From: Owenia fusiformis
Taxonomy: Eukaryota > Annelida > Polychaeta > Sabellida > Oweniidae
Length of the DNA: 64,000 nucleotides
Direction of reading: 5' to 3'
NCBI GenBank assembly: GCA_903813345.2
Contig: CAIIXF020000003.1
Coordinates: forward strand, 30,891,248-30,955,247
In this document: in pieces, positions 27,922-63,545 of the stretch
How positions within the stretch are numbered: position 1 is the first letter of the stretch
Layout of the letters: each line of letters starts with the position of its first letter
The notes under the pieces: model-generated
Database searches by the model: none
What the model was told of the DNA's origin: nothing
The model's input: only the letters and a program-made list of their open reading frames with translations
Position numbers and translations under genes: made by a program

Positions 27922-28846
27922 ATGTCTTCCAGTGAAGATGAAACACACCTTATGCGAAGTCTCCATGACTTCAATGAATGTGTTTTCAAAGAGAAAATAC
28001 CCCAGAATGCAGGAGACATTGATCCTATAGTATGGGACCTGAAAAAAGTCCTTGAGAATCACAAGGCAAATATCAATGTCAAAGATGCAACAGGACTTGC
28101 CCCATTAATGTATTTTATACAAGAACTGTGTATCAGAGAAGGCGATGTTCCGGAGATATGGTATCTTATAGAAGCAATCAAACTCCTTATTGCATTTGGT
28201 GCCGATATTAATACTACTGATGAAAATGGCTTCTCTCCATTGATCTACCTCAGGGCATTCAAAGGAAGGGACCATGTAGTTATAGATGTCATTACACTTT
28301 TTGTAAATCTAGGTGCAGAAGAAGATATGAATAGACACATTACTTATTGTGTCATTCATGCATCTATATCCATGGAAACAGTGCATGTATCCATGGAGAC
28401 AAGCATTGAAAACATAAGTGATATCTCTATGATAACCTTCCATGAGAGCATGGAGATATCCATAGCAACAACATCTAGCTCATCTATGGACACAACAAAT
28501 GTTTTCTATTCCCTCGAAAGAACTGCTGAAGGTGACAAAATTAAAGTGGACCAGATAGTACATGTGGTTGAAACTGTTGCCAGGAAAATTGTTCATGAGA
28601 CACTATCAAGTTTCAACACTTGCACTGACACTATTGCAGTAAATGGAACAGAAAACTTACAGACTGGAATCCTTGCAACTCAAGACTCCACAAGTGAGCT
28701 TTTAAAAGAATCAGATCAACTAGATACTGCTAACAGTGAAGTTCCAAAAACAACCACTGCTCAGAGTGTGGGCACAAACAAAGATGCAAATACTGATAAG
28801 GCTTCCACAGTAGGAGCAGATACTAAGAGAACAAGAAAAACAGCAT
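27922..28846 (+). CDS. ankyrin/death gene, exon 1
   Basis: ATG in GCCATGTC context at 27922. 925 nt, ends phase 1 at donor GTAAGT. Ankyrin repeats and the linker. Confidence 0.75.
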
Positions 28847-30153
28847 GTAAGTCAATTTCAAAATTCAATTTCAAATAAATTTGAAAATTTCATAATAAAC
28901 ATATACAAGCATTAACAATAACATAAACATGTATTTTCCAGGTATGTTTATCATTTCAAATAATGAAAAAATATTGTGAATTGCAGATGGATCCATGAAT
29001 AAACTGTACACCAAACTCTCCCCACAGATGGGTAATTCCAGTTACACAATTTTTATCAACCTTGGTGTAACCTCAGGAGAATATGAGACATCACAAAACA
29101 ACTATCCTCATGATGCAAACAGTAGAAATATCAACCTGCTAACAATATGGGACAAGAAGCAATCCAAAGACATTGATAAGTGTAAATTATTAGCTGAAGC
29201 ATTGCAGAAATCTGACAGAGCAGACCTTGCAGATATGGTTTGGTGAGTAATAATATAACTCTATGAGTTAAAACTCAGTTTACCTGCTAACACATCCTCC
29301 TAAGCAGGTATCCAGAATCCATACCTCCTTCTTCCCCCTGCTATAACCAATTTGGCAGCGCCCGATTAAACTGAATCACATGATCTTATTATGCGCAATG
29401 ACTTATACATGATTTCTGTCGCAGTGTTCCGACAACCAATCAGATTGCGAGTTCTTAATCGTGGAAATGCTAACTGCTTATCGCAGTGAAGCCCTATGAT
29501 CGGAGGTTGTGGTAACATTATTATCTGAAATGTCTAGCTATATACAAGTAAACCCTTGCTGAAAAGATTAACAACTTATCTTCTTATACTAGTCTGTCAT
29601 TAAATAAAATGGCTACTTTAAAGTTGCAATCCTACTGAGGGATGGCCCAAATGAGGTGTTAGATATAGCATAGTCTAACAAGGCAAACACATAAACTGTA
29701 TCTAACAACTGGTTTTGAAACCCTAAATATGACACTCTCTATTTTGTTTCCAGGGATGCTGATATATCTGAGGGTACACAAGAATCAAAACCCCAGAAGA
29801 GAATAGTCATATCAGAAAATGCTGACAACCAATCCAAATATGATGAAGACAGTATCCCTAAGAAAAAACCAAAGCTTGATGACTCCAAAGCTAGTACATG
29901 TACTGCAACTTTAAATATAACACTATCTTACAACATTGAATCTATGGACTCTGGATTCAACTCTTCAACATCAAGAAAGAGAGGAAGATCAAATGAATCA
30001 AATGAATTAGACTCAACTCTGTGCTTTGATGCAACATTAGACTTGAGAAACATCCCAGTGGAGAGAAGGCCCAGCTCAATTCCTAACAAGAAACGGAGAT
30101 TTGATAATGACCAGCATGATTATGGTGATGGAGATGTTACACTAAAGAACTAG
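27922..30153 (+). CDS. ankyrin-repeat / death-like-domain protein with basic tail
   Basis: Exons 27922-28846, 28987-29242 and 29754-30153 join in frame (phases 1 and 2) to 526 residues. Residues about 45-145 carry two to three degenerate ankyrin repeats (NVKDATGLAPLMYF, LLIAFGADINTTDENGFSPL). A Ser/Met/Glu-rich repetitive stretch follows (SMETVHVSMETSIENISDIS). Exon 2 holds an approximately 80-residue helical domain (LYTKLSPQMGNSSYTIFINL, then NLLTIWDKK and KLLAEALQKSDRADLADMV) that resembles death-fold domains. The last exon is polar and basic with PKKKPKLDD and NKKRRFDND, possible nuclear localisation signals. Death-fold plus ankyrin proteins usually act as adaptors in innate immune or cell-death signalling; here that is inference. 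AATAAA at 30306. Confidence 0.72.
28987..29242 (+). CDS. ankyrin/death gene, exon 2 (death-like domain)
   Basis: Acceptor TTGCAG, 256 nt, phase 1 to 2, donor GTGAGT. It is homologous to exon 37840-38092 of the neighbouring gene in sequence, phase and length. Confidence 0.75.
29754..30153 (+). CDS. ankyrin/death gene, exon 3
   Basis: Acceptor TTTCCAG; frame DADISEGTQESKPQKR onward to TAG at 30151. Polar, with several basic clusters. Confidence 0.7.
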
Positions 30154-30311: not shown

Positions 30312-30407
30312 GCTTTGAAACTGGATGACACATCTATTGATTATTCAATAGATTGTACCCAAGATAGAAATACAACTCTTGGATACAATCCACTGAGAAA
30401 GAGAAGT

Positions 30408-31500
30408 ATAGTTTTGTAAATAAACTAGCATAGCTTGCTTAAAATAGTACCATTGCTTGTATCAAATACACTGTATGTGTGTAGGCTACACTTGTCAAAT
30501 GGTCAAATCAAGCACAGGCGCCAAGTAATGGTCAAATCAAATACAAGTGACAATTAAAACACAATGTATGCAGCTCATAAAAACTTGAATTTGATCATTT
30601 ATCATATACACTGAGTCATACAATGTTACAGCATATATTGGACAAATACTCCGGCTTACATTTTTCTTTATGTTAGATGCTGTTTGGCAGAGCAGGATGG
30701 CAAATCTCAATAAAGGAAAAGGACTCTGTGTATTAACATATACACATTATAGTCAAGGTAAGAATGTAAATTAACAGTACATTTATACAATCATATTGAA
30801 ATCTCTGAATAATGCCTTTACTTCTTTGCACTGCTTATGGGTTAATATAACAAATAGCATTTAAACATTTCTAAATGCTTAATATGAAAAATATTGACAC
30901 CTTTCCTCTTTGCTGAAGACAAAAAGAAGAGTCTCAATTCTAAACAAAACAAGTTATTCATTTTAACTTGAATGTTTTTTGTTATTTCTACTTTAAGGTC
31001 TTCATGATCGGTTGATGTCTGAGTTTGATGAGACCTGTGTCTACACAACAGCTGAGTGTTATAGCCTCATTGACTCATGGTTACCTCAGATGCTGGGTTT
31101 AACATAACAAGGCAATGTGTAAATATACATTCTGGAGTAAAAACATTGAACCATCGACAGTGTCAGTGAAATATATAGACTTATAGACTATAATCCACAT
31201 GAATTTGATATGTGTTCATTTAGAATTTATGAGTTTGTGTTTCACAATGTAAATCCCACACTAGGCAACTTGTCCATGCAAGTAAAACGATTTGCCAATC
31301 TCCACTTCATAGGTGCATTCAGGTGTAACAGAGGCACACCTTGGCACAGAGTGGGTGGACCCCCTAATTTTCACATACATGAACTAGCAAGTTTGATATG
31401 TGTTGTTTTAGGTTGGGTTCCTGGATTTGGAGATTCTCAAACATGTACCTGTACGTTGAGGCGTTTTTTAAATGAGAGCTTACAAAAGCTAAAATTAGAT
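30408..31500 (+). repeat. segmental duplication, copy 1
   Basis: Starts TATAGTTTTGTAAATAAACT. It is repeated as 38553-38653 plus 55061-55920, the two halves being separated by the retrotransposon. The duplication includes the two-exon unit below and following noncoding sequence (CACTTCATAGGTGCATTCAG, GGTTGGGTTCCTGGATTTGG). Confidence 0.8.
30677..31107 (+). CDS. unrecognised gene, last two exons (copy 1)
   Basis: Exons 30677-30757 (phase 1-1, acceptor ATGTTAG, donor GTAAGA) and 30998-31107 (acceptor TTTAAG, stop TAA). Joined protein: AVWQSRMANLNKGKGLCVLT, YTHYSQG, LHDRLMSEFDETCVYTTAEC and YSLIDSWLPQMLGLT. I do not recognise the family. The paralogous copy at 55 kb keeps exon sites, and most differences in the first exon are silent or conservative, so this was once or still is coding. 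Upstream exons are not identified. Because phase 1 acceptors are shared, it could be an alternative 3' end of the death-domain gene. Confidence 0.5.
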
Positions 31501-32628: not shown

Positions 32629-33201
32629 TCAAAAATTCAAATCTAAATTCAAATCTAAATTCAAAACAACATTTGTTGTGTCCAAAAATGAGCTAGATGT
32701 TGTTGCTATGGATATCTCCATGCTCTCATGGAAGGTTATCATAGAGATATCACTTATGTTTTCAATGCTTGTCTCCATGGATTCATGCACTGTTTCCATG
32801 GATATAGATGCATGAATGACACAATAAGTAATGTGTCTATCCATTTCTTCTTCTGCGCCTAGATTTACAAAAAGTGTAATGACATCTTTAACTACATGGT
32901 CCCTTCCTTTGAATGCCCTGAGGTAGATCAATGGAGAGAAGCCATTTTCATCAGTAGCATTAATATCAGCACCAAATGCAATAAGGAGTTTGATTGCTTC
33001 TAAAAGATACCATATCTCCGGAACATCGCCTTCCCTAATACACAATTCTCGTGTAAAATGCATTAATGGGGCCAGCCCAGTTGCATCTTTGACATTGATA
33101 TTTGCCTTGGGAGGCTCAAGGACTTTTTTTAGGTCCCATACTATAGGATCAATGTCTCCTCCATACTTGGGTATTTTCTCTTTAAAAGAAAAATTCATCA
33201 A
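32629..33201 (-). pseudogene. inverted partial copy of the ankyrin exon
   Basis: A 190-codon open frame on the minus strand, nearly identical over about 170 residues to residues 22-195 of the ankyrin/death protein (FKEKIPKYGGDIDPIVWDLK, LLIAFGADINATDENGFSPL). It lacks the first 20 residues and replaces the exon end by a repeated NLDLNLDLN tail from a simple repeat before the stop. No death-like exon follows it on that strand. The open frame points to a recent duplication or retained selection. Confidence 0.65.
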
Positions 33202-33337
33202 TTTTATAATACATCAAGAAACCTAAAGTGCTCCTGTCTGAAGTATTATGCGGTAAACTCCAGGATAAATAATGCAATTAAGCACACACATCTATAATTT
33301 TTTATAATTTTTTATGAATGATATTATACTAAAGATG

Positions 33338-33720: not shown

Positions 33721-33984
33721 AATGCCATTGGCGCTTGGCAGCATACTTTCTTGTACATGAAATTGTTAAATAAAGACAAGTAAAACAAACAAACCACATG
33801 TAGCTATACCTATGATTAAGCAATATCAAAAATTACACAAGCCCAGAGATGGCAAAAAGAAAATTACTAATAGACTATTACATCTACCTTACAAAATTGA
33901 TTGAAGTTAATTACATAGGTGAATATATTTTTTCAGATCTTCATTCTGATCTATTTCATCATGCAGCATTTCCTGATGATGCTC

Positions 33985-34070
33985 ATGTTGACCATGTTGA
34001 CCATGCTGACCACGTTGATCATGCTGACCATGTTGATCATGCTGACCATGTTGATCATGTTGATCATACT
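33985..34070 (+). repeat. 9-bp tandem repeat, GACCATGTT/GATCATGCT
   Basis: Alternating GACCATGTTGACCATGCT units, open in all frames (DHVDHADH on +). It is preceded by TTTTTTCAG/ATCTTCATTC, a reasonable splice acceptor, but no partner exon is found. Confidence 0.6.
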
Positions 34071-34316
34071 CATCACCTTTTTTGGAAATGATGAAAATAA
34101 TATTAAACTGATCTCTGACCACATCATTACTATTATGCAAGCAGTACTGGATATCGGGTAAAACATTTCATTAAGTTCAAGTTTATTTGGCCAATCTTTA
34201 TCATAATATAGTTAGTTTTGGTAATTAACATTCATGTATGACATACATATATACATGTATATAGAATCATAAGACAGTGGTATTGAAGAAACCATATTAA
34301 AACAAAATTTCCATCA

Positions 34317-36393
34317 ATGAACAAGATGTTTAATACAGATCATCATAATATTTTTCTAAAATACATACATAAAGTATCAGATAGAGGTTCAGAAATAAGT
34401 TCAGATTATTTTAAATCGACTGATACACAGGTTGAACATATTAATACCTTATATTTTCTTAAATCCAGGGATACTTACAATGAAGCTACCAAAACTGTCA
34501 ACCCCAAAAGAATGAGATCCAACTCCTATACTAACCATGGAGATTCAAACCCAACAGTCAATTTCCGAGATGATACCAGCAGGGATACTAACACCCAATG
34601 TCACCCTAATGACAGGAGTAGCGGGGATGTTGTCTCAATATTAGTGCATGAAAATCAATGTGGATTTATTAAAAAATGTTCTAGTAGCGAAATTTTGAGA
34701 GCCAGTAATGATGTTTTTGCTCATTTAGATAATGAAGATAAACAAGGGATTATATTACATGTATTTGAAGATTACTCAAAATGTTATGACAGTATTTTTA
34801 AAGATTTTATGTGTGACTCTCTTTCAATTTTTGGATTTAGTGAATATTTTATAAGCTATGTAAAGCAAATCAACAATAACTGTATAAGCTGTATAAATTA
34901 CAATGGATGGATTCATGGTAGAATTCAACTAGATAAGGATAAAAAGCAAGGAAACCCCTTGTCTCCTGTAATCTATGATATATTGTTAAAAAATTTATCT
35001 TGTAACATTTTTCAGAACAGAAATGTGATTGGTGTTGAACTGCCAAATGGCTCAGAATTTAAACTACTGCAATATGCAGTCAATACAACAATATCTATTC
35101 AAGATGAACAATCATCAAAATACATTCTTAAACTATTTGACAGTTTTGTCATAGTTTCTGGATTAAGATTAAACAAAACTAAAGCATTATGGTCAGGAAA
35201 ATGGAAGTCTAGGAAAGAAACTATTTATCATGTAAAATGGAAAATTTATAGAAATAACACATTTAAGATTTTAGGTATTACATGTATGTATCGAACAGAA
35301 AATGTCATGAATATAGCTGATGGTATAGAACCAAGATTTGGCAAATGTCAAAATGTATTTAAGATCTGTTCAATACGTAATATAACTTTGTTAGGTAAAA
35401 TCGCATCGATTAAATCCTTAGTTTCCTCACAATCCATGTATTTAATGCAAAGTTTTATATTTCATGATGATATAAAGAGAATGATTACCATGTTTTTCAA
35501 GTTTATACGGTCAAAAAATGTTAAAAGAGATTTTATGGTCCAAGTAGATTATAAAGATGGAGGTTTTAAAATGACTGATATGCATGATATGCAGGCCTCA
35601 TTTATTTTGAAGTGGATAAAACATATTGTACTACCAGGTAATGGGCATTGGAGTTGTATTCCTAAGTTTGATTATAGCAAATATGCCACTGATCTAAATG
35701 CATTTACATGTAGCGGTGAACTTAGTGATTATACAAACTTACCTGAATTTTACAGAAAGATTTTACAAACTGGGCAAAATCATAAAACTGAATCTGAACA
35801 ATATCTTATCTGGAATAATGAAAATTTAAAAATAAGTGGGAACAATATATATTTTACAAATTGGATTGCAAAAGGTATAAATTATGTATGTGATAGTGAT
35901 GTAACTAATGAAAGATTAATGATAGAACTATATAGAATTATTGGTAGCAGTAGCAGGGATTACAAGGCAACAACACCTAAATCATGCTTGACCAACATCA
36001 GTCACATCAAAACTGCTGTCCAGTCCAAAACAATGAGATTCAACTCATGTAAAGATACACCTCCTCTAAAGGAAGCAACAAAGGTTTATTTAAATGACAC
36101 TGCTCAAGTCTCGAATTTGAAAAAAAATAGAAAGTACAATGGGGTAGAGGAGACAATTTCAAATTATACAGACAGTATTAAAAATTATAGAACAAAGACA
36201 AGACATGGCATTCACCTGGAGGATACAAACATTAAAGCTTCAAAACCAAAAAAGGTTACCCAAGAGGAAACAGAAAAGAAACATGTTGGTACACAAGTTG
36301 AATTTCATGGTTTAGACAACGAGAAACCAATAAACTCAAATCCTGAAGATGAAAATACTTCGAATACTGATAGAGTTAAAGGAAATACAATGG
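34317..36393 (+). CDS. RT-derived first exon
   Basis: 2077 nt, ATG at 34317 (a second ATG three codons on), ends phase 1 at ATGG/GTAAGT. The intronless RT segment is embedded in non-RT sequence at both ends (residues 1-110 and about 560-692, rich in Asn, Thr, Lys). Confidence 0.7.
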
Positions 36394-38439
36394 GTAAGTT
36401 AATTTGAAAACCTAATTTCCAACTTGCTGTTTAAGACACTTCATAATATGTAGACTTCAAGATGTCATATATCATCATGGCCATAAGGAAAAGCTACATA
36501 ATATGTTGACTCGAATGATAATTATTTTTTAATCAACAGTAACCTTTTAACAATGCTTGCGAAGATAAAAAAAATTGCTACAGTAATATAGATACTGTTT
36601 ATCCTTTTAGATGATTTTCACAAAAAGTGGATTGATTGTATAGTGGACATATATTCCAAGATACCCTTTTACCTCTCATTAAGTAAATATGAGACCTCAG
36701 AACTGCAGAGTGTTTCCCACAATGCCAACAAAAGGGTGTCTAAAAAAGAGTAAGTACAAACAACTTACCTTACTTTTAGTACTTACAATACAGTGTACTC
36801 TTATTTGGTATGGCTTTCCTTGAACTACAGATGTACTAAAGTAAAATGCAGCGCTATATACACTATATAAAAACTGGACCATTTCACTATAATAGGTATA
36901 ATAGGTACCTATACTAGGTTCAATCCATGATGTACCACTTCTAGATGCTTTGGACAAGTTGTATCATCAGCAGAACATTGTTGTTAACAGATTGCTTGAA
37001 AGATTTAATTTATCCCAACATGGGTTTGAACTAAAAATATTACTATTGTACAGGTATATAGAGGATATACTATGATTTATGAGTGATATGATTTTTATCC
37101 AAGAATGGATATGAGTGACTACAGATATCAATATCCTGCCTAAGTGGATTAAAGTCAATCAACAGTCATACTAATGAAAGTTTGCAACTGTTTATTACTA
37201 AATTAAAAATCATCTGAAATTATGTGGTTTTACTCCAAAACAATTTGACCATAACTGTCAGCCTCACTTTGAGTCAAGTAGCATAGATCAAAAAATTTAT
37301 TTGATGGTTCAGTGAAAATTTGCCAAAATCCCATTACTGTACAATCAGGGGTTTCACTAGAATTTCCCACAACAGGCTACAAATGAAAACAACAGGCAAA
37401 ATTAAAGGAAATCATTTTAACATGGAAAAGTTGAAAAATCCCTGAAAACAACAGGCAATTTTGTGAAAACAAACAATGAAAATTGCCTGTTGCCTGCTGC
37501 TAATGAAACCCCTGACATTTCAAAAATACTGTTTTTATTTTGACATGATGAATACAGTAACTATAGAATAATAATACTAAATATCCCATGTGTTTCTAGG
37601 GACAAAGATTCTAATGGATACAAAGGTCCTACATCACAAAGAAAAGGGAAAACATGTAAGTGAATTAGAAACCCTTATTTTCACCTGATTTCAAAAACTC
37701 AGACAAATGTTTTAAATGTAACTTTTGTGAAAACATTTAACATCCTTTTTCCATATCATATTAGAAATTTTTGTAGCAATGTGACCAAAGCATGTGTATT
37801 ATTTTCTGTTATTAATATGACAAGAATTGTTAATTGCAGATAAATCATGGGATATACTTTATGGAAAATTAGCTTCACATATTGGGGATTCCAGTCTTAG
37901 AATATCTATTTATCTTGGATTCACTCTAGAAGAATATCAGACATCACAGCAAAAGTGGCCACATTCTCCAATAAATGTGAATATTGACTTATTGACACAA
38001 TGGGATAGGAAAAATGATGGTGGTGATAAATACAATCTGTTAGCTGAAGCATTCCAGGAATGTGGCAGGAATGATCTTAAAAACATGGTTATGTGAGTAT
38101 CCCACGAATCAAAATTTAAATAAAGTATTTAAAAAAGTGTGTGAGGATTCCATACAGAGTGTGCAAATGTCAAAGTTGGGACTATAAATAGGGCAAGCCA
38201 AAGCTAAGTTTAATTTAGGTATAAGAGGACATTGAGGACTATGATTACATCTCAGACAGATAACAGATATTTACCATATTAGTAAAGTTTTGGCCTAGTG
38301 TGACTTCGGATTACCTTGCGTCCGGTATTTCACAACTACATGAATGTCCAAATGATTGACTCAAAATAAGGTCTTAACTTGAAAATACCTAATTTCATTT
38401 TTACAATATTTTTACAGGAATGCTTACATACTGAAGTAA
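34317..38439 (+). CDS. LINE-RT-derived / death-like-domain fusion gene
   Basis: Exons 34317-36393, 36611-36749, 37600-37655, 37840-38092 and 38418-38439 join in frame (phases 1, 2, 1, 2) to 848 residues. Exon 1 carries a LINE-type reverse transcriptase palm from about residue 113 (NQCGFIKK). Motif A Asp 152 is in EDYSKCYDS; motif B is QGNPLSP (211-217); motif C, normally YADD, is YAVN (253-256). The RT C-terminal region follows (LLGKIASIKSL, DGGFKMTDMHDMQASFILKW). The fingers domain is missing. A 150-residue polar tail follows. Exon 4 encodes a death-like domain homologous to the neighbouring ankyrin gene (LYGKLASHIGDSSLRISIYL, LLAEAFQECGRNDLKNMVM). A 696-codon open frame with lost catalytic site argues for domestication. 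Splicing is inferred from phase and sites, not transcripts. Confidence 0.65.
36611..36749 (+). CDS. RT/death gene, exon 2
   Basis: Acceptor CCTTTTAG, 139 nt, phase 1 to 2, donor GTAAGT. Encodes DFHKKWIDCIVDIYSKIPFY and LSLSKYETSELQSVSHNANK. The spacing SKYETSELQ resembles VTSGEYETSQ of the death-like domain, so it may be a second, truncated death-like repeat. Confidence 0.6.
37346..37514. mobile_element. MITE with CAGGGGTTTCA ends
   Basis: 169 bp in an intron of the RT/death gene. Ends CAGGGGTTTCACTAG and complement of CTAATGAAACCCCTG; interior ACAACAGGCAA repeats on both arms. hAT-like termini; no clear target duplication seen. Confidence 0.65.
37600..37655 (+). CDS. RT/death gene, exon 3
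   Basis: Acceptor TTTCTAG, 56 nt, phase 2 to 1, donor GTAAGT. Encodes a basic linker DKDSNGYKGPTSQRKGKT. Confidence 0.6.
37840..38092 (+). CDS. RT/death gene, exon 4 (death-like domain)
   Basis: Acceptor AATTGCAG, 253 nt, phase 1 to 2, donor GTGAGT. Clear paralogue of exon 28987-29242, including NxDLLTQWDRK against NLLTIWDKK. Confidence 0.75.
38418..38439 (+). CDS. RT/death gene, terminal exon
   Basis: Acceptor TTTTACAG; completes Met and adds NAYILK then TAA. Very short, so an alternative downstream exon is possible. Confidence 0.45.
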
Positions 38440-38653
38440 GACCTGGATTAAGAATACAAAACTATATTTATGAGAGTGTGATGGTCACCAATCAAGTAAT
38501 AATGATGAAGTCTGAATACATCTCTTCAATACAATCCAATGAGGCAGAGAAGTATAGTTTTGTAAATAAACGAGCATAGCTTGCATAAGATAGTACCATT
38601 GCTTGTATCAAATATGTGTGTAAGTTACACTTGTCAAATTTAATCATTTATCT

Positions 38654-39046
38654 TGTTACAGTACTGACTATTATATTCACATTAAGTTTAGTTTGCTTTC
38701 TGAACATATACGGATTATCATATACATTTGTGGATTATCATAAACATTTGTGGATTATCATTAAACATTTGTGGATTATCATCAAACATTATTGGATACG
38801 GACATTATAGGATTACGACGAACATTACTGGATTATTACAAACATTGGAGAACTATTAACAATTATCGAAACTTTCGTGATCTGGAACATTCTAAAGGAT
38901 CGTCAACGACATTTATCTACATCTACATATCATATGTATTGACTTTTATATATTATTGTTATTGTTTTTAGTTTTCAAAAATATATTACTGTACATTGTT
39001 ATATTTTAATTGCTGTTTTTACTTTCTGTTATTTTCGAACGTAACA
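38654..39046 (+). repeat. 5' LTR (internally deleted)
   Basis: 393 bp, TGTTAC...GTAACA. It contains three GTGGATTATCAT units. Compared with the 3' LTR it lacks about 1 kb in at least two blocks, so the two LTRs no longer match in length. Confidence 0.85.
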
Positions 39047-39069: not shown

Positions 39070-39142
39070 ACAACTACAAGCTAAAATATTTTAAAATTCA
39101 AAACTTGCACATCTAAATTGTTAGGACAGCAATTAATCGAAA

Positions 39143-42100
39143 ATGAGTTTTGAGGTTGAGACATTTTTAGAAGCGCCCTCTTTGGAGGAATTTGACGATT
39201 TAAAGAAAACTGAACTTCTGGCAATTGGCCTGTCAGTCAAAAGCTCATACAATAAAGGTACAATCAAAAACTTTGTACTTCAATATTTGATCGCAGAATC
39301 ACTTCTGCCTGAGCAGCCAGCCCAACATGTTGACCCTGTTGATCCTATTAAGCTTAAAGAGCTCGAAATAAGAGAGAAAGAGTTAGAAATTCAAAAAGAA
39401 AGAGAAATTAGAGAATTGAGAGAAAAAGAATTAGAAATGCAAAATGAAAGAGAAAAAAGGCAACAAGAAATTGAATTAAAGAGGCTCGAAATAGAAGCTA
39501 AATCCAAAACTGACGAACATGCTACTATGCATCAACATTTTGAAAATAGGTTTGACGCTTCAAAATTTCTCAAATTTGTACCTAAATTTCAGGAGAAAAA
39601 TATTGATAAATACTTTACGCATTTTGAAAAGGTCGCTCAGAGCTTAGACTGGCCTAAGTCAGCATGGCCAGTTATGCTTCAGAGTGTATTCATTGGTAAA
39701 GCGAGTGAAATATTTGCCTCTCTCTCAGCAGAAGCATGCTCTGATTATGACCAAGTTAAAAATGTGATTCTTAAAGCTTATGAACTAGTGCCAGAAGCTT
39801 ATAGACAAAAATTTAGAAATGCCCACAAACAGAGTGACCAAACCCATGTTGAGTTTGATCGAGAGCAAGAGCAGCTTTTTGACAGGTGGCTTGTCTCTAA
39901 AGATGTATCTGAAGAGTTTAAAAAGCTCAGAGAGCTTATGCTAAAAGAACAATTTAAAAACTGTGTTCAATATCACATTACAACTTATTTAGATGAACAC
40001 AAGGTAGAAACTTTAAGTCAAGCTGCCACCCTATCTGATGATTACATACCTGCCAACCTACCGTATTTTTACGGGAATCTACCGTAAATTTTTCGTTTTT
40101 CCGTAAAAAAATGACAAACTTCCGTAAAAAATACCATGTTTTTCCCGTAAAAACGCCCGTAAAAAGATCTACCGTATTTTTTTCGAAATCTACCGTAAAT
40201 TTATTTTTTAAAAACTCGTTTCTTCCATGAGAACGGCCGTAAAATCTACCGTATATTTTTGAAAATCTACCGTAAATTTTCGAAAATCTACCGTATTTCT
40301 GCTAAAATCAACAGTATTTTTGTTCAAACTACCGTAAAATTTCCCGTTATTGTTGGGAAATGCTGAAAAATTGAAGTCTTCCTGTACTGTCCCTGTAATA
40401 TTCCTTCACCAACCCGAATACAAATAGGTATCGACAGGTCTGTGGTTATCAGGTTATTGCGCATTTATCTAAGTACGCTGGCGTATAATCAGTCCAAACA
40501 CCAACTACCACAAGAAAGAATTCTTTCTGACATGATTTTTGTAGTTAACCAAACCCTTTTGTACACAGATCTTTATTCCGAATGCAACAAAAATATGATT
40601 TTAGTTGCGCTTCATCTAAATAAATGAGTGGAAATGACAAAAACTACTTGCTTTACCGTATGAAATATGCGTAGTTTGGTTTATGATCAGTACTGAACGC
40701 CACATATACATTATACATAGTTTAATCAATTTGTTTTCAGTACGATAAAATGTTGTATTTTTCATCTGAACACATTATATCAGTAACAAATACATAATAT
40801 ATACCAACCAGCATGAGGATTATGGAATTTTTTCTGCATCTTTTGGATTTGATTACAACCATTCGATATTCCACTCTATTAAAATGGTTCGAAACACGTA
40901 ATAAATTCGTTTGTTTTTACACATTTATATTTGATTTATGTAACTATATATGCGATAAATGCACTTGTATATGCGGTTTATGTTATTCAGTGTTTGGTAA
41001 AATGTCACATATTTAAGTCACGAACAAAGACGGTTGACACATAATATATTTAGAACACACATCAAATACAAATATACTTTAGAACCAAACAATGTTCATT
41101 TACCGAACATTTACCAAATAGCACGGACATATAGTGACTTACCCCACATATTAATGACATATTGCACATAAAATCATGTGGGGTAGGTCAAATTCTTCCA
41201 CAAAACTAGTTATTTTAAAATCTATCGCAAAAACTACCGCATTTTTTCCAAATTTACCGAAAAGTACCGCATTTTTGGCAAATCTTCCGCAAAAGTACCG
41301 GTTTTTTCAAAAAATTACCGTAAAAACTACTGCAATTTTCAAAATCTACCGTAAAACTACCGCATTTTTTCCGAATCTTCCGCAAAACTACCGGTTTTTC
41401 AAAAAATTACCGTGAAAACTACCGCATTTTTTCAAAATCTACCGTAAAACGGCGCATTTTTTCAAAATCTTCCGCAAAACTACCGCTTTTTCAAAAAACT
41501 ACCGTAAAAACTACTGCATTTTTTAAAATCTACCGTAAAACTACCGCATTTTTTCTAAATCTTCCGCAAAACTACCGCTTTTTTCAAATTTCTACCGTAA
41601 AATTACATTTTTTTTCAAAAATCTACCCCAAACCTCTGAAACTACAGTATTTTTTTAAATCTACCGCAAAAACTACCGTTTATTTTATAAATCTACCGCA
41701 AAAACTACCGTTTTTTTAAAAATCTACCGCAAAAACTACCGTTTTTTCTAAAATCTACCGTAAAAACTACCGCAATTTTGTTGAAAAATACCGCAAAAAC
41801 TACCGTTTTTTGAAAAAATCTACCGCAAAAATACAGCAATTTTAAAAAATCTACCGCAAAATTTTGGTCTTAGGTTGGCAGGTATGGATTATACTCTTAC
41901 TCATAAGGGTAGTTTTATCAAAGGTAATCCAAACTCTAACTTTAGAGGTTATCAGGGTAACAAACCTTCATATGACTCTAAATCAAATCAGTCCTCATCA
42001 TCAAATACATCAAACAAAGCAAAAGACCAGTCTAATGCATCACAGAGTTCTAGCTCAAAATAAGATCTATCAAATTCTTCAGGTCCAAAATCAAATGTCA

Positions 42101-43797: not shown

Positions 43798-44928
43798 ATC
43801 ATTAGACCCCATTGTTTCTGATCAGCCTTGTTCTATTGAGGATTCTGTCCAAGAGGGCTCTGATATATAGCCTGCTTGTGCTGTTACTAGGGCTATGGCT
43901 AAAAAGTTAGCTAATAGTGGGGATTCGTCTGTGGGAGATGACTTTGATAGTGGGTTTTTAAGCTCCTTGTTTGATGATGAATGTCACTTACCACTTGTTA
44001 AAGATGATCCTTATCCTATTTTAAAGGCAAATTCTTCATTGAAACAGCCTTCTGTTCAAGCCAAGCAGTCATCTATTGAGGCAAATTCTTCATTGAAAAA
44101 GCCAACGCCAGAGGTGATTCACCTTCTGAGCAGGATCACTATTTTAATGTGGTTTCGCCCGCTCTTGCTAATCCTGATGAAGTTTCATCTTCTTCTGCTA
44201 GTGTTCATGAGGTTTCATCCCCTCCTTGTTCTGAGGTTTCATCCTCTATTTCTGATAGTGATTCTTTGAAAAATGATCCTCATTCTAAACACATGTTAAT
44301 TTATGAACAAGAGCATGATCCATCACTCATTGATCTTCATAAAAGATGTCTTACTATTGATGAAGCCGAAAAGGTCCCTGTTTGTTTCTACAAAAAGGAT
44401 GGCATATTAATGCGAAAGTGGAGACCTCCTGAAGCTTCCCCTGAAGATGATTGGGCAATTGTACATCAAATTGTTGTTCCCAAATCATATCATAAGGAAA
44501 TCCTGAGTCTAGCTCATGATTCTCCCATGGCAGGTCATTTAGGAGTAACTAAAACATACAATAAAATACTCAATCATTTCTATTGGCCCAAATTAAAACA
44601 AGATGTCCAAGAGTATTGTAGGTCTTGTCATACATGTCAAATGGTAGGGAAACCTAACCAGAAAATTCCAGCTGCTCCTTTACACATTATACCTGCATTT
44701 GATGAACCATTTAGTAAGGTTCTTATTGACTGTGTTGGTCCATTACCAAAAACAAAATCTGGTAATCAATATTTACTCACTATTCTTTGTATGGCCACAC
44801 GGTTTCCAGAAGCGATTCCACTTAGCAATATCAAAGTCAAGAATATAGTGAAATCACTCATCAAATTTTTCACCTTAGTTGGACTGCCAAAAGATCTTCA
44901 GTCTGATCAGGGCTCAAATTTTATGTCA

Positions 44929-47900
44929 TAGTCCAGTAAAACCGTGGCAAAAATTGACAAATGAAGGAAAAAATTGCAAAAGTATTTAAACCTAGTGTAA
45001 TCAATGCATAATGATGGGTTAAAAGACATATCAAAAATCTAGAAAAATCTAAGTAGTGGAAAACTTCGAAAATCACCATTTATACCCCCTGGGGTACTTT
45101 TACGAGGGGGTACTATGGTAAACCTTAATTATTCCTGTTATGTACCCCAGATCACATTCAAATTTTCAGGGATCATGCAGCTATACATAGTCAGTTACCA
45201 TGGCAAGTTTGATATTGATTGGTGAAATGATTACCATAGCAACACAATTTGATTACACAAAAGCTGTAAATATTTTGGATAAATCCAAAGCTTCCTTAAA
45301 AATAAAAACAAATGTCTGCTTATCTTTTTAAGTTATTCCAAATGAACACAAATTTGACCTTTAAAACAAATTTAGGGAGTTTTCAATAAGATAACATGAT
45401 CAAAATGATGAACTCGTGGATGTCTATGACTCTGGACTCTGTTGATATTTGGTGACTACTGCTCAATCTACTAAAAAGTGGGTGTGGTACTTTTGGTTAC
45501 ATTTTCTAACAATTTCATTTTGACAGTATCAATCACAGTCATATTTATAGGGGTCATGAATACAGATATTATAATTTGATATGGTAAATCTGAACATGAT
45601 TGGTCAAGTGGTTGCCATAGTAACACAACATAATGAATGCAAATAGTGGCTAGAGATCATTTCAAATAATCCTTATATCTTAACAGGTTGTTCCAATTAC
45701 ATTCACCTTTTAAGAGTTATTTTGTGTATGATTCTAACAAAATTAAGTTTGGATAATATTGATACATGGTTGTTATGGCAACTTAACTGATAATGCTGTT
45801 TGTTTTGACACATGCTTCGCTACTGTAGTATCTTCTTAGTACAAAATACGACAGGCCATGTCTTTAACTCTCTGTCTGTCTGGATATCTCCTTCTAGACC
45901 CTTCAATCTTGAGTCATCATGCTTGATCAATATTCTTAGTGGATCAATGAGTATCCTATTAAGGTCATAGGTCAATATCTCGGTATTTGGCATTTTAAGA
46001 TCCTGGGCGGATGCTGTGACCCTTGACGATCAATGATAAGGTAACCTGAAGTCAAGGTCAATGTTATGGGTCAAAGTCATTCCAAGGTCAATGATCAATT
46101 TCTAGGTGTTAAAGTATTTTGGGGCCTTTTGACCCACTTGTATGGGTAGAGATTGCTAGTATAAGTAATGGAATTATGTTCAATTTGAATTGTTTTCACA
46201 ATTCAAGTTTAAATGTACTTGTTAAAACATATTTATATCTACTTCCATTGTGTCTCAATCTTTCTGATATAAAGTTGTTTGTAAGAGGATGTATTCATCT
46301 CAGACTTTGGAGGCTGAGGCTGTACCCATCTTGAGACTCTTGAGACTGTACCATCTCCGATTCTGAAGGATGTATTCATCTTAAACTCTGGAGGCTGTAC
46401 CATCTTTGATTCTGGAGGATGTATTCATCTTAAACTCTGGAGGATGTACCATCTTAGATTCTGGAGGATGTACCATCTTATATTCTGGAGGATGTATTCA
46501 TCTTAGACTCTGGAGGCTGTACTATCTTAGATTCTGGAAAATGTATTTATCTTAGACTCTGGAGGCTGTACTATCTTAAATTCTGGAGGAAGTATTCATC
46601 TCAGACTTTGGAGGCTGAGGCTGTAACTATCTTGAGACTCTTGAGACTGTACTATCTTAGATTGTGAAGGATGTATTCATCTTAAACTCTGGAGACTGTA
46701 CCATTTTAGATTCTTGAGGAAGTATTCATCTCAGACTTTGGAGGCTGAGGCTGTACCTATCTTGAGACTCTTGAGACTGTACTATCTTAGATTCTAAAGG
46801 ATGTATTCATCTTAAACTCTGGAGGCTGTACCATCTTAGATTCTGGAGGATGTACCATCTTAGATTCTAGAGGATGTATTCATCTTAGACTCTAGAGGCT
46901 GTACTATCTTAGATTCTGGAAAATGTATTTATCTTAGACTCTGGAGGCTGTACTATTTTAAATTCTGGAGGAAGTATTCATCTCAGACTTTGGAGGCTGA
47001 GGCTGTACCTATCTTGAGACTCTTGAGACTGTACTATCTTAGATTCTGAAGGATGTATTCATCTTAAACTCTGGAGACTGTACCATTTTAGATTCTTGAG
47101 GATGTATTCATCTTAAACTCTGGAGGCTATACTATCTTAAATTCTGGAGGAAGTATTCATCTCAGATTTTGGAGACTGAGGCTGTACCTATCTTGAGACT
47201 CTTGAGACTGCACTATCTTAGATTGTGAAGGATGTATTCATCTTAAACTCTGGAGACTGTACCATTTTAGATTCTTGAGGAAGTATTCATCTCAGACTTT
47301 GGAGGCTGAGGCTGTACCTATCTTGAAACTCTTGAGACTGTTCTATCTTAGATTCTGAAGGATGTATTCATCTTAAACTCTGGAGGCCGTACCATCTCAG
47401 ATTCTGAAGGATGTATTCATCTTAAACTCTGGAGGCTGTACCATCTTAGATTCTGGAGGATGTATTCATCTTAGACTCTGGAGGCTGTACTAAGATTCTG
47501 GAGGATGCATTCATCTTAGACTCTGGAGGATGTACCATCTTAGATTCTGGAGGATGTATTCATCTTAGACTCTGGAGGCTGTACTATCTTAAATTCTGGA
47601 GGATGTATTCATCTAAGACTTCAGAAGCTGTACCATCTTAAATTCTGGAGGATGTATTCATCTTAGACTTTGGATACTGTACAATCTTAGATTATTAAGG
47701 CTATAACCATCTATGACAATGGAGGCTGTACCATTTTAGTCTCTGGAGGCTGTTCCCATCTTAAGACTCTGGAGGCTGTGCCCAATTTAGAGTCTGTAGA
47801 CTGTACCATCTTAGGCTCTGGTAGCTGAACTATGTTATAGTCTAAGTGCTCTACCATATTAAGGCATGGGATGTTACTTTCTAGCGATTGAGCCGCATGT

Positions 47901-49161: not shown

Positions 49162-49546
49162 TCAGGCTTATTCCAACAAGTCATGGATACATTGGGTATC
49201 AAACAGTGTAAGTCAAGTGCCTATCACCCAGAGTCTCAATGAGCTCTTGTGCGTTACCATCAGCCGCTTAAGACCATGATTAGAGCTTTCTGTTTTGAAT
49301 ATGAGAAAGACTGGGATGAGGGCATACCATTGCTTCTGCTACCAGGGAGGCTAAGCAAGAATCATTAGGGTTCAGTCCATTTGAGCTAGTATTTGGTCAT
49401 TCTGTGCGTGGTCCACTTAAATTGCTCAAAGAAAAGTGGCTGTCAGAAACTGAAAAGTTTAATTTATTGAACTATGTCACTGGGTTTAAAGAGCGCCTAT
49501 AAAAGGCTTGTGAAATAACCAAAGAAAGCTAAATAGCCAAGATAAA

Positions 49547-51324
49547 ATGAAAACTTGGTATGACAGAAAAGTCAAAGAAAGATCTTTCCAGCCAGGTGAC
49601 AAAGTTCTTATATTGTTGCCACTTCAGACAAATCCATTACAGGCAAAATTCTATGGTCCTTATGTAGTGGATTCCAAGGTCAATGACCTCAATTATATTG
49701 TCAAAACTCCAGATAGGCGCAAAGAAACACAACTGTGTCACATCAATATGATAAAAAGGTACTTTGAGCCAGAAAAAGAGCATGGCTCAGTTAAACATGT
49801 AGTTACTTTGGCACCTGCCCTTGTAAAAGAAACTGATCTACAAGATCCAGATGATATCACTTATACTGATTTAGACTATAAAGATATCAAAGGTTTGTCT
49901 AGGTTAAAGAACTCTGAAGTATTATCAAATCTAGATCATAAATTGCACCATGTGACAAATGATCAAAAACAGCAAGTCACAGAATTAATTCATGAGTTCA
50001 CTGATATCTTCTCTGATGTAACGACTAAGACATCTATAGCTTATCATGATGTTGAAGTCCAAGATGTAAACCCTATTAAGCAACATGCTTATAGAGTTAA
50101 TCCATCAAAATCTGAAGATTTGAGAGCTGAGGTCAATTATATGTTAGAAAATGACATAATTGAAAAGAGCAATAGCCCATGGAGTTCACCTGCTTTCATT
50201 GTACCAAAATCAAATGGTGGATGTAGGCTAGTAGTTAATTATATCAAAGTGAATCGAGTAACAAAGACCGATTCTTATCCCATACCATGAATTGACGACT
50301 GTATTGACAAAATTGGAACTGCTAAATATGTCAGAAAATTTGATCTCCTCAAAGGATTCCTAGGGGTTCCATTAACTGAAAGAGCAAAAAACAGGTATCT
50401 GCCTTTGTTACTCCTGATGGTTTGTACCAATTTAAAGTTATGCCATTTGGTATGAAAAATGCACCTGCCACATTTCAAAGAATGATGAATGGCTTATTAG
50501 CAGACCTCAAAAACACTGGTGTATACATCAATGATGTAATTGTCTATTCTGACACTTTTGATGAACACATGTGTCTGCTGCATAAGTTGTTAGAAAGAAT
50601 CTCTCTTGCCAATTTAACCATCAATTTGGCTAAAAGTGAATGTTGTAAAGCCACAGTTGAAAATCTGGGCCATGTGGTAGGCCAGGGGCAGGTTAAACCA
50701 GTGAGTGCCAAAGTGGAATCAATAATACAACTCCCAGCTCCTACTAACAAGAAAGAATTGATGAGAAGTCTTGGAATGGCTGGCTGTTATAGGAAGTTTT
50801 GTTCAAATTTCTCTTCAATTGCTCTTCCATTGACCAATTTACTTGGAAAAAACATCCAATATGTGTGGTCTGAGCAATGTCATACAGCCTTTGATAAAAT
50901 CAAGGCCATACTAAGTGAACAACCAGTGCTTGTTGCACCTGATTTTAGCAAGCCATTCAAGATTCAAGTAGATGCTTCTGATGTAGGAATGGGGGCTGTC
51001 CTATTACAAGAAAAGGATGGTATTGATCATCCAGTGTGTTATTATTCAAAGAAATTTGATAAACATCAGAAAAACTACTCCACCATAGAAAAGGAATGTC
51101 TAGCATTACTTCTGTCATTACAGCATTTTGAAGTATATGTTAGTTCACCAGCTCATACAGTTACTGTATTTACTGATCACAATCCACTGACATTCCTTCA
51201 TAGAATGAAGAACAAGAATCGTAGATTGTTAAGGTGGAGTCTGTTATTGTCAGAGTACAATCTTGAAATAAGACACATCAAAGGCAAGGATAATCTAATT
51301 GCTGACACTCTTTCAAGAGTGTAA
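49547..51324 (+). pseudogene. integrase C-terminus, reverse transcriptase and RNase H
   Basis: The open frame 49547-50290 holds the integrase C-terminal domain and RT start (PWSSPAFIVPKSNGGCRLVV). A TGA at 50288 and a frameshift near 50390 follow. From 50422 RT continues (VMPFGMKNAPATFQRMMNG); the catalytic box reads YINDVIV, its first Asp replaced by Asn. RNase H has FKIQVDASDVGMGAVLLQ, STIEKECLAL and VFTDHNPL and ends TLSRV. Confidence 0.88.
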
Positions 51325-62584: not shown

Positions 62585-62924
62585 GCGGGAAGCAGTGAGC
62601 TTAGCTCAGTCTTTATTTCAGGTTCAAGGGGAACATATCAAGTAGTCTTTCTTTCAGGTTCAGTACATACGTTTGAGGAGCGAGTCAATACGTTTCAGAA
62701 TTGTGGAATTGAGTTCTTTCAAATTCAAGCAATATCAATCAAGAGATTCGATCTCAGGTACTTTGAAATTCTTTCACCTTGATAGAAATACTTCTATAGA
62801 GATATATTTTGGATAACAATTGTTAGTGGAATTTAACTTCAACTTATTTCAGTTGACTTTTGTTTGGAACTTTGATTTATTTTAGGGATTTTATTTCAGG
62901 ACTTTATTTGTTTTCAGCACTTTG

Positions 62925-63545
62925 TATATTTTCAGATGCTGTCCAGACTCATTGTATGAGCAGAGACTTTGTGTATTTTCAGGAGCTGTCCGGACCAGGG
63001 TATTTGCAAAGCAGAGACTTTGTATATTTTCAGATGCTGTCCAGACTCATTGTATGAGCAGAGACTTTGTGTATTTTCAGGAGCTGTCCGGACCAGGGTA
63101 TTTGCAAAGCAGAGACTTTGTATATTTTCAGATGCTGTCCAGACTCATTGTATGAGCAGAGACTTTGTGTATTTTCAGGAGCTGTCCGGACCAGGTGTAT
63201 TTGCAAAGCAGAGACTTTGTATATTTTCAGATGCTGTCCAGACTCATTGTATGAGCAGAGACTTTGTGTATTTTCAGGAGCTGTCCGGACCAGGTGTATT
63301 TGCAAAGCAGAGACTTTGTATATTTTCAGATGCTGTCCAGACTCATTGTATGAGCAGAGACTTTGTGTATTTTCAGGAGCTGTCCGGACCAGGTGTATTT
63401 GCAAAGTAGAGACTTTGTATATTTTCAGATGCTGTCCAGACTCATTGTATGAGCAGAGACTTTGTGTATTTTCAGGAGCTGTCCGGACCAGGTGTATTTG
63501 CAGAGCAGAGACTTTGTGTATTTTCAGATGCTGTCTGGACTAGGA
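62925..63545 (+). repeat. 98-99 bp tandem array with TATTTTCAG units
   Basis: Six copies at a spacing of 98, 98, 99, 99, 99 (starts near 62971, 63069, 63167, 63266, 63365, 63464). Each is two related half-units: AGAGACTTTGTGTATTTTCAG-type followed by GAGCTGTCCGGACCAGG, or GATGCTGTCCAGACTC. All frames stay open because the unit lacks stops in most frames. TTTTCAG before a G resembles a splice acceptor in every unit. Confidence 0.85.

Follow-up and report, generated by a model that had tools for sequence, protein, structure and literature searches.

In marine invertebrates, TRADD-N proteins of the DEDD2 clade have been described as fusions to retrotransposons, in families that are lineage-specific and architecturally variable (Kaur et al. 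2021, PMC8195603). In monotremes, RTOM1-3 were presented as putative host proteins derived from reverse transcriptases (RTs) without catalytic aspartates, and purifying selection was reported for them (PMC9514029). The ruminant bucentaur p97 gene is reported to be the outcome of a tandem duplication followed by the recruitment of retrotransposon sequence, including an enzyme domain of a long interspersed nuclear element (LINE) (Iwashita et al. 2003, 2006; via PMC7284322). Here, a 64,000-nucleotide stretch of the annelid Owenia fusiformis (contig CAIIXF020000003.1, positions 30,891,248 to 30,955,247; hereafter the window) was analyzed, in which a predicted gene at 34317-38439 joins a LINE-derived RT segment to a Death domain (the RT-Death gene). 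To our knowledge, few host genes built from LINE RT are known, and we know of no Death domain in bucentaur p97.

The original prediction regarded this build as unfamiliar in animals, and the described TRADD-N-retrotransposon fusions (PMC8195603) and aspartate-less RT proteins (PMC9514029) make it less alien. The TRADD-N fusions, like the RT-Death gene, bring together a death-pathway gene and retrotransposon sequence, but their partner is TRADD-N, usually with a DED, whereas the partner here is a Death domain. RTOM1-3 are likewise RT-derived and have lost the catalytic aspartates; however, their RT is of retroviral rather than LINE origin, and the excerpted text mentions no fusion of RTOM to a signalling domain. 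In bucentaur p97, the enzyme domain was reported to be the endonuclease of RTE-1, unlike the RT found here. Among the matches listed from the titles and abstract openings of one literature collection, none concerned a gene combining a LINE RT with a Death domain.

The RT-Death gene is tentatively read, at somewhat below an even chance, as a Death-domain adaptor whose N-terminal platform derives from a LINE and is catalytically dead, located in a local cluster of Death-domain genes. Such a gene would connect the domestication of transposons with signalling in innate immunity or cell death, and would offer a single-gene example of invertebrate death-domain clusters gaining new N-terminal parts.

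The exon chain and the LINE-derived exon

The predicted exons are the following:

34317..36393, + strand, exon 1 of the RT-Death gene: 692 codons, ending in phase 1 at donor GTAAGT
36611..36749, + strand, exon 2: open in the reading frame carried over from exon 1 and in no other
37600..37655, + strand, exon 3: 56 nt, stop-free in the predicted frame and one further frame
37840..38092, + strand, exon 4, Death domain: six predicted helices, predicted local distance difference test (pLDDT) score 88 in the highest-scoring of five models
38418..38439, + strand, exon 5 including the stop codon: coding to 38436, with AATAAA at 38565

When joined from the ATG at 34317 to the TAA stop at 38437-38439, the five exons chain in phase into 848 residues with 0 internal stops, and 4/4 of the predicted introns are bounded by GT..AG, so that the exon coordinates and phases first proposed were correct. 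The claim of a frame open for more than 2 kb and ending in phase 1 at a donor also held, since the frame spans 34287-36407 (706 codons) and exon 1 ends at 36393 on a GTAAGT donor. In 20 random 64-kb sequences with the base composition of the window (34% GC), the longest stop-free runs measured 94-171 codons, and a chance long open reading frame (ORF) was rejected on the basis of this 171-codon maximum. The GT[AG]AGT motif occurs five times in 34001-38700, four of them being the predicted exon ends and the fifth (38620) lying past the AATAAA.

These signals bear on the explanation that the join is wrong, namely that exon 1 stands alone as a LINE-derived gene or relic, with the Death exons on a transcript that has another first exon. 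In its favour, the chain is a prediction from genomic DNA, and agreement in phase has by itself, by our reckoning, a one-in-three chance; but the 706-codon frame stops 11 bases after its sole GT[AG]AGT donor, exon 2 is open in no frame other than the matching one, and stops would be expected in a free LINE relic of this divergence. A wrong join is accordingly considered improbable.

A 9/18-bp tandem repeat lies immediately upstream of the gene, at 33984-34067. About 0.6 kb past the end of the RT-Death gene begins an open gag-like frame of 316 codons (39137-40087), which matches SCAN (E 8.3e-12) and, below the cut-off, the Ty3 capsid.

Exon 1 comprises the following parts:

34317..34628, + strand, N-terminal flank, residues 1-104: no similarity to LINEs found, pLDDT <50, P of being open 0.0013
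34629..35894, + strand, LINE ORF2 palm-thumb segment, residues 105-526: single frame, 50% identity to LINE protein P0001 and 46% to P0002 (match to 35924)
34770..34772, + strand, motif A Asp (D152), retained: two-residue insertion directly before it relative to P0001
35073..35084, + strand, motif C YAVN in place of YADD: both Asp lost
35895..36392, + strand, linker, residues 527-692: pLDDT <50, P of being open 2.5e-5

The LINE derivation of the segment is established by significant homology to LINE proteins, the match to P0001 reaching E 3.4e-124, together with an RVT_1 match (E 2.8e-10; 40.7 bits, cut-off 29.6) in which residues 109-322 correspond to profile positions 36-204 of 205. The L1-like label comes from PDB matches and not from a clade tree. 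The Pfam scan of the 848 residues (matches up to E 1) listed RVT_1 and, below its cut-off, ASA5 as the sole matches and showed no TRADD-N, the Pfam model covering TRADD-N being left unchecked. As had been proposed, motifs A and B are present (D152 and Q211-G212), and at motif C the LINE residues D255 and D256 are replaced by V and N; without the two aspartates of active LINEs, the segment is not expected to act as a DNA polymerase. The fingers had also been described as missing: LINE homology first appears at residues 105-107, corresponding to residue 556 of human L1 ORF2p, and the RT start is therefore absent, its identity as the fingers being our reading. The match spans residues 552-985 of the 1189 of P0001 and covers neither end, and the endonuclease, the complete RT and the C-terminal region of an active LINE ORF2p were not found. 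The segment resembles L1-type ORF2p (8sxt, 8uw3) in palm-thumb sequence and predicted fold, but, unlike it, has no endonuclease, RT start, C-terminal part or YADD, and stands in phase with host exons.

The linker alone showed LINE similarity not above that of shuffles, and the alignment to P0003 extends weakly to residue 607. At the protein level, the N and C flanks resembled neither each other, nor the ankyrin exon of a neighbouring gene, nor nine LINE proteins (P0001-P0009) more closely than the best of the shuffles did. At the DNA level, the comparison of the N flank with the ankyrin linker gave a score of 47, the highest of 200 shuffles being 45; the N and C flanks scored 47 against 51, and the C flank and the ankyrin linker 56 against 60, and these two comparisons were taken as negative. 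In a search for RT relatives among viral contigs, one stretch matched a pattern and none was confirmed. A recent insertion was disfavoured: no exact repeat of at least 10 bases is common to 34500-34680 and 35800-36250, and 35701-36420 contains a single A/T run of at least 8, the A8 at 36120, which lies within the open frame.

The Death domain and its neighbouring paralogue

Upstream of the RT-Death gene, an ankyrin-Death gene and related sequences were located:

27922..28846, + strand, neighbouring paralogue, ankyrin exon
28987..29243, + strand, neighbouring paralogue, Death exon: 5′ junction in the same phase as that of the RT-Death gene
30369..30500, + strand, 3′ end sequence of the ankyrin-Death gene: 86% DNA identity to 38515-38639
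32629..33213, - strand, ankyrin exon copy, inverted and truncated: synonymous divergence (dS) 0.125 and non-synonymous divergence (dN) 0.059 to the + copy (178 codons)

The paralogy first proposed for the two Death domains is supported by 51% identity of the RT-Death exon to 29004-29240 (tblastn within the window, E 3.6e-15), and both Death exons are opened by a phase-1 junction (K-T-Y and K-T-A-Y). The Death exon of the ankyrin gene has a Pfam Death match (E 6.7e-5), and the predicted Death domain of the RT-Death gene fits, in structure comparison, the six-helix bundle of solved Death domains. It would share this fold with the Death domains of Ankyrin, PIDD and FADD, which differ from it in sequence (12-22% identity in structural alignments) and in their N-terminal partner. 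At their 3′ ends, the two Death-domain genes resemble each other more closely (86%) than in their Death exons (65% DNA identity), for which gene conversion, a common repeat or a constrained 3′ end are candidate readings.

The same data address a further explanation, a mobile element, now or formerly a multicopy LINE, that took up a Death domain. Fusions of retrotransposons with genes of the death pathway are reported (PMC8195603); however, the Death part is split by introns and lies beside a gene of the same phase, the ankyrin gene's Death exon was the only second Death copy detected by tblastn in the 64-kb window, and the LINE matches reach neither end of P0001. A mobile element of this kind is very unlikely.

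Selection on the frame, the RT fold and candidate roles

The original prediction also viewed exon 1 as a domesticated dead RT kept open. In the tree of the RT region, the branch of the segment (0.62) was more than twice as long as those of P0001 (0.24) and P0002 (0.28), and its distance from P0003 was 1.60, against 1.22 and 1.17 for the same two LINEs. With gapped columns excluded, the segment had lost 7/24 residues invariant in the nine LINEs, 15/53 of those invariant in P0001-P0006 and 44/156 of those invariant in P0001-P0003; the leave-one-out losses of P0001 to P0009 were 1/25, 0/24, 2/26, 2/26, 3/27, 2/26, 3/27, 8/32 and 9/33. Neutral simulations, performed under a simple mutation model of our own with the present sequence as ancestor and an assumed indel rate, gave a mean of 9.4 stops when 28% of the codons were changed (0/400 runs stop-free) and of 6.9 stops at 20% change, again with no stop-free run, whereas the probability of a stop-free run was 0.0025 at 15% and 0.0175 at 10%. 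The flanks (104 + 166 codons) are open too, while their other two frames hold 4-19 stops. The frame is therefore open beyond neutral expectation, and because the branch is long and 15/53 residues were lost, yet neutral decay at 20% or 28% change was never stop-free, it seems from these comparisons to have been protected by selection while RT function was lost.

Whether the RT fold is conserved for itself was only weakly answered, and the answer leans to no, so that this portion of the domestication claim was not supported. Of 157 sites hydrophobic in P0001-P0003, 47 had changed to a residue unseen in them, and 31/47 stayed hydrophobic against a neutral expectation of 26.3 (P 0.11). LINE controls kept hydrophobicity in 47/51, 43/56 and 79/108 changes (73-92%), a rough yardstick, as these counts take in every column aligned to any of the 692 residues, beyond 105-526. 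Changes at polar sites stayed polar in 24/28 cases against 21.0 expected (P 0.13). The changes at 44 positions where the three nearest LINEs are invariant were less drastic than neutral ones (P 0.012), and some of them may predate the loss of RT function; those at the 15 stricter LINE-invariant sites were not significantly conservative (P 0.13). As the core changes are near neutral, selection may act only on read-through to the Death domain.

These results lend weight to a close rival of the platform reading, in which the Death-domain gene is real and its LINE-derived exon is an inert spacer without function of its own, whose residues drift while stops and frameshifts are purged for the sake of the downstream Death domain. 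The hydrophobic, polar and 15-site comparisons, as well as the pLDDT below 50 of the flanks, speak for the spacer, which is regarded as possible but doubtful. If true, it would provide a clean case of a dead LINE held open by selection for a downstream part.

Several further points weigh against the platform reading, besides the near-neutral core and a gene model predicted from genomic DNA. The node joining the segment with P0001 and P0002 has a support of just 71. The loss of invariant residues is not unique to the segment, as the remote LINEs P0008 (8/32) and P0009 (9/33) also show it; these have the longest terminal branches in the tree, and therefore the count is telling only alongside short sister branches. 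The Death exon alone scored 12.9-13 bits, below the PF00531 gathering cut-off of 22.6, which is a weak point of the death-like assignment. No relatives of the Death region were detected at E up to 10 among 109 candidates, nor of the ankyrin-Death protein at E up to 1 among 3725 candidates. Structure prediction, expected at first to inform on both domains, was favourable for the Death exon, whereas the RT part was modelled with low confidence (mean pLDDT 49; 155/692 residues at 70 or above).

Under the preferred platform reading, we infer that a Death-domain gene was duplicated beside the ankyrin-Death gene and that one duplicate then gained an internal LINE ORF2 piece, consisting of RT palm and thumb without RT start, endonuclease or C-terminus, as a 5′ coding exon. 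The whole message, if transcribed as predicted, would subsequently have been held in frame by selection. The C-terminal domain would use Death-Death contacts to recruit partners; the large N-terminal part would act as a non-catalytic platform that localises or clusters the protein and may still bind nucleic acid or protein partners.

An immune or sensor role may also be envisaged. In an integrated-decoy arrangement, the dead LINE RT palm would serve as bait for retroelement RNA, cDNA or RT complexes, and its engagement or clustering would lead the attached Death domain to trigger death-fold signalling. This arrangement is considered unlikely; if true, it would represent a self-derived anti-retroelement alarm in an animal, and if the RT part binds retroelement products, the idea of a self-derived retroelement sensor would be directly testable.

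Other features of the window

Ty3/Gypsy-like integrase and RT/RNase H pieces were found at 44080-44931 and 49514-51324, the domain scan leaving out 49514-50290. On the minus strand, an open frame at 12012-12650 matches the C-terminal domain of the glycine cleavage T-protein (E 4.6e-15) and is probably one of the exons of a conserved metabolic gene. A 418-residue open frame at 18948-20204 matches family 2 glycosyltransferases (E 3.5e-6). At 62919-63535, a 99-bp tandem array of 6.3 copies with 99% matches holds long open frames on both strands.
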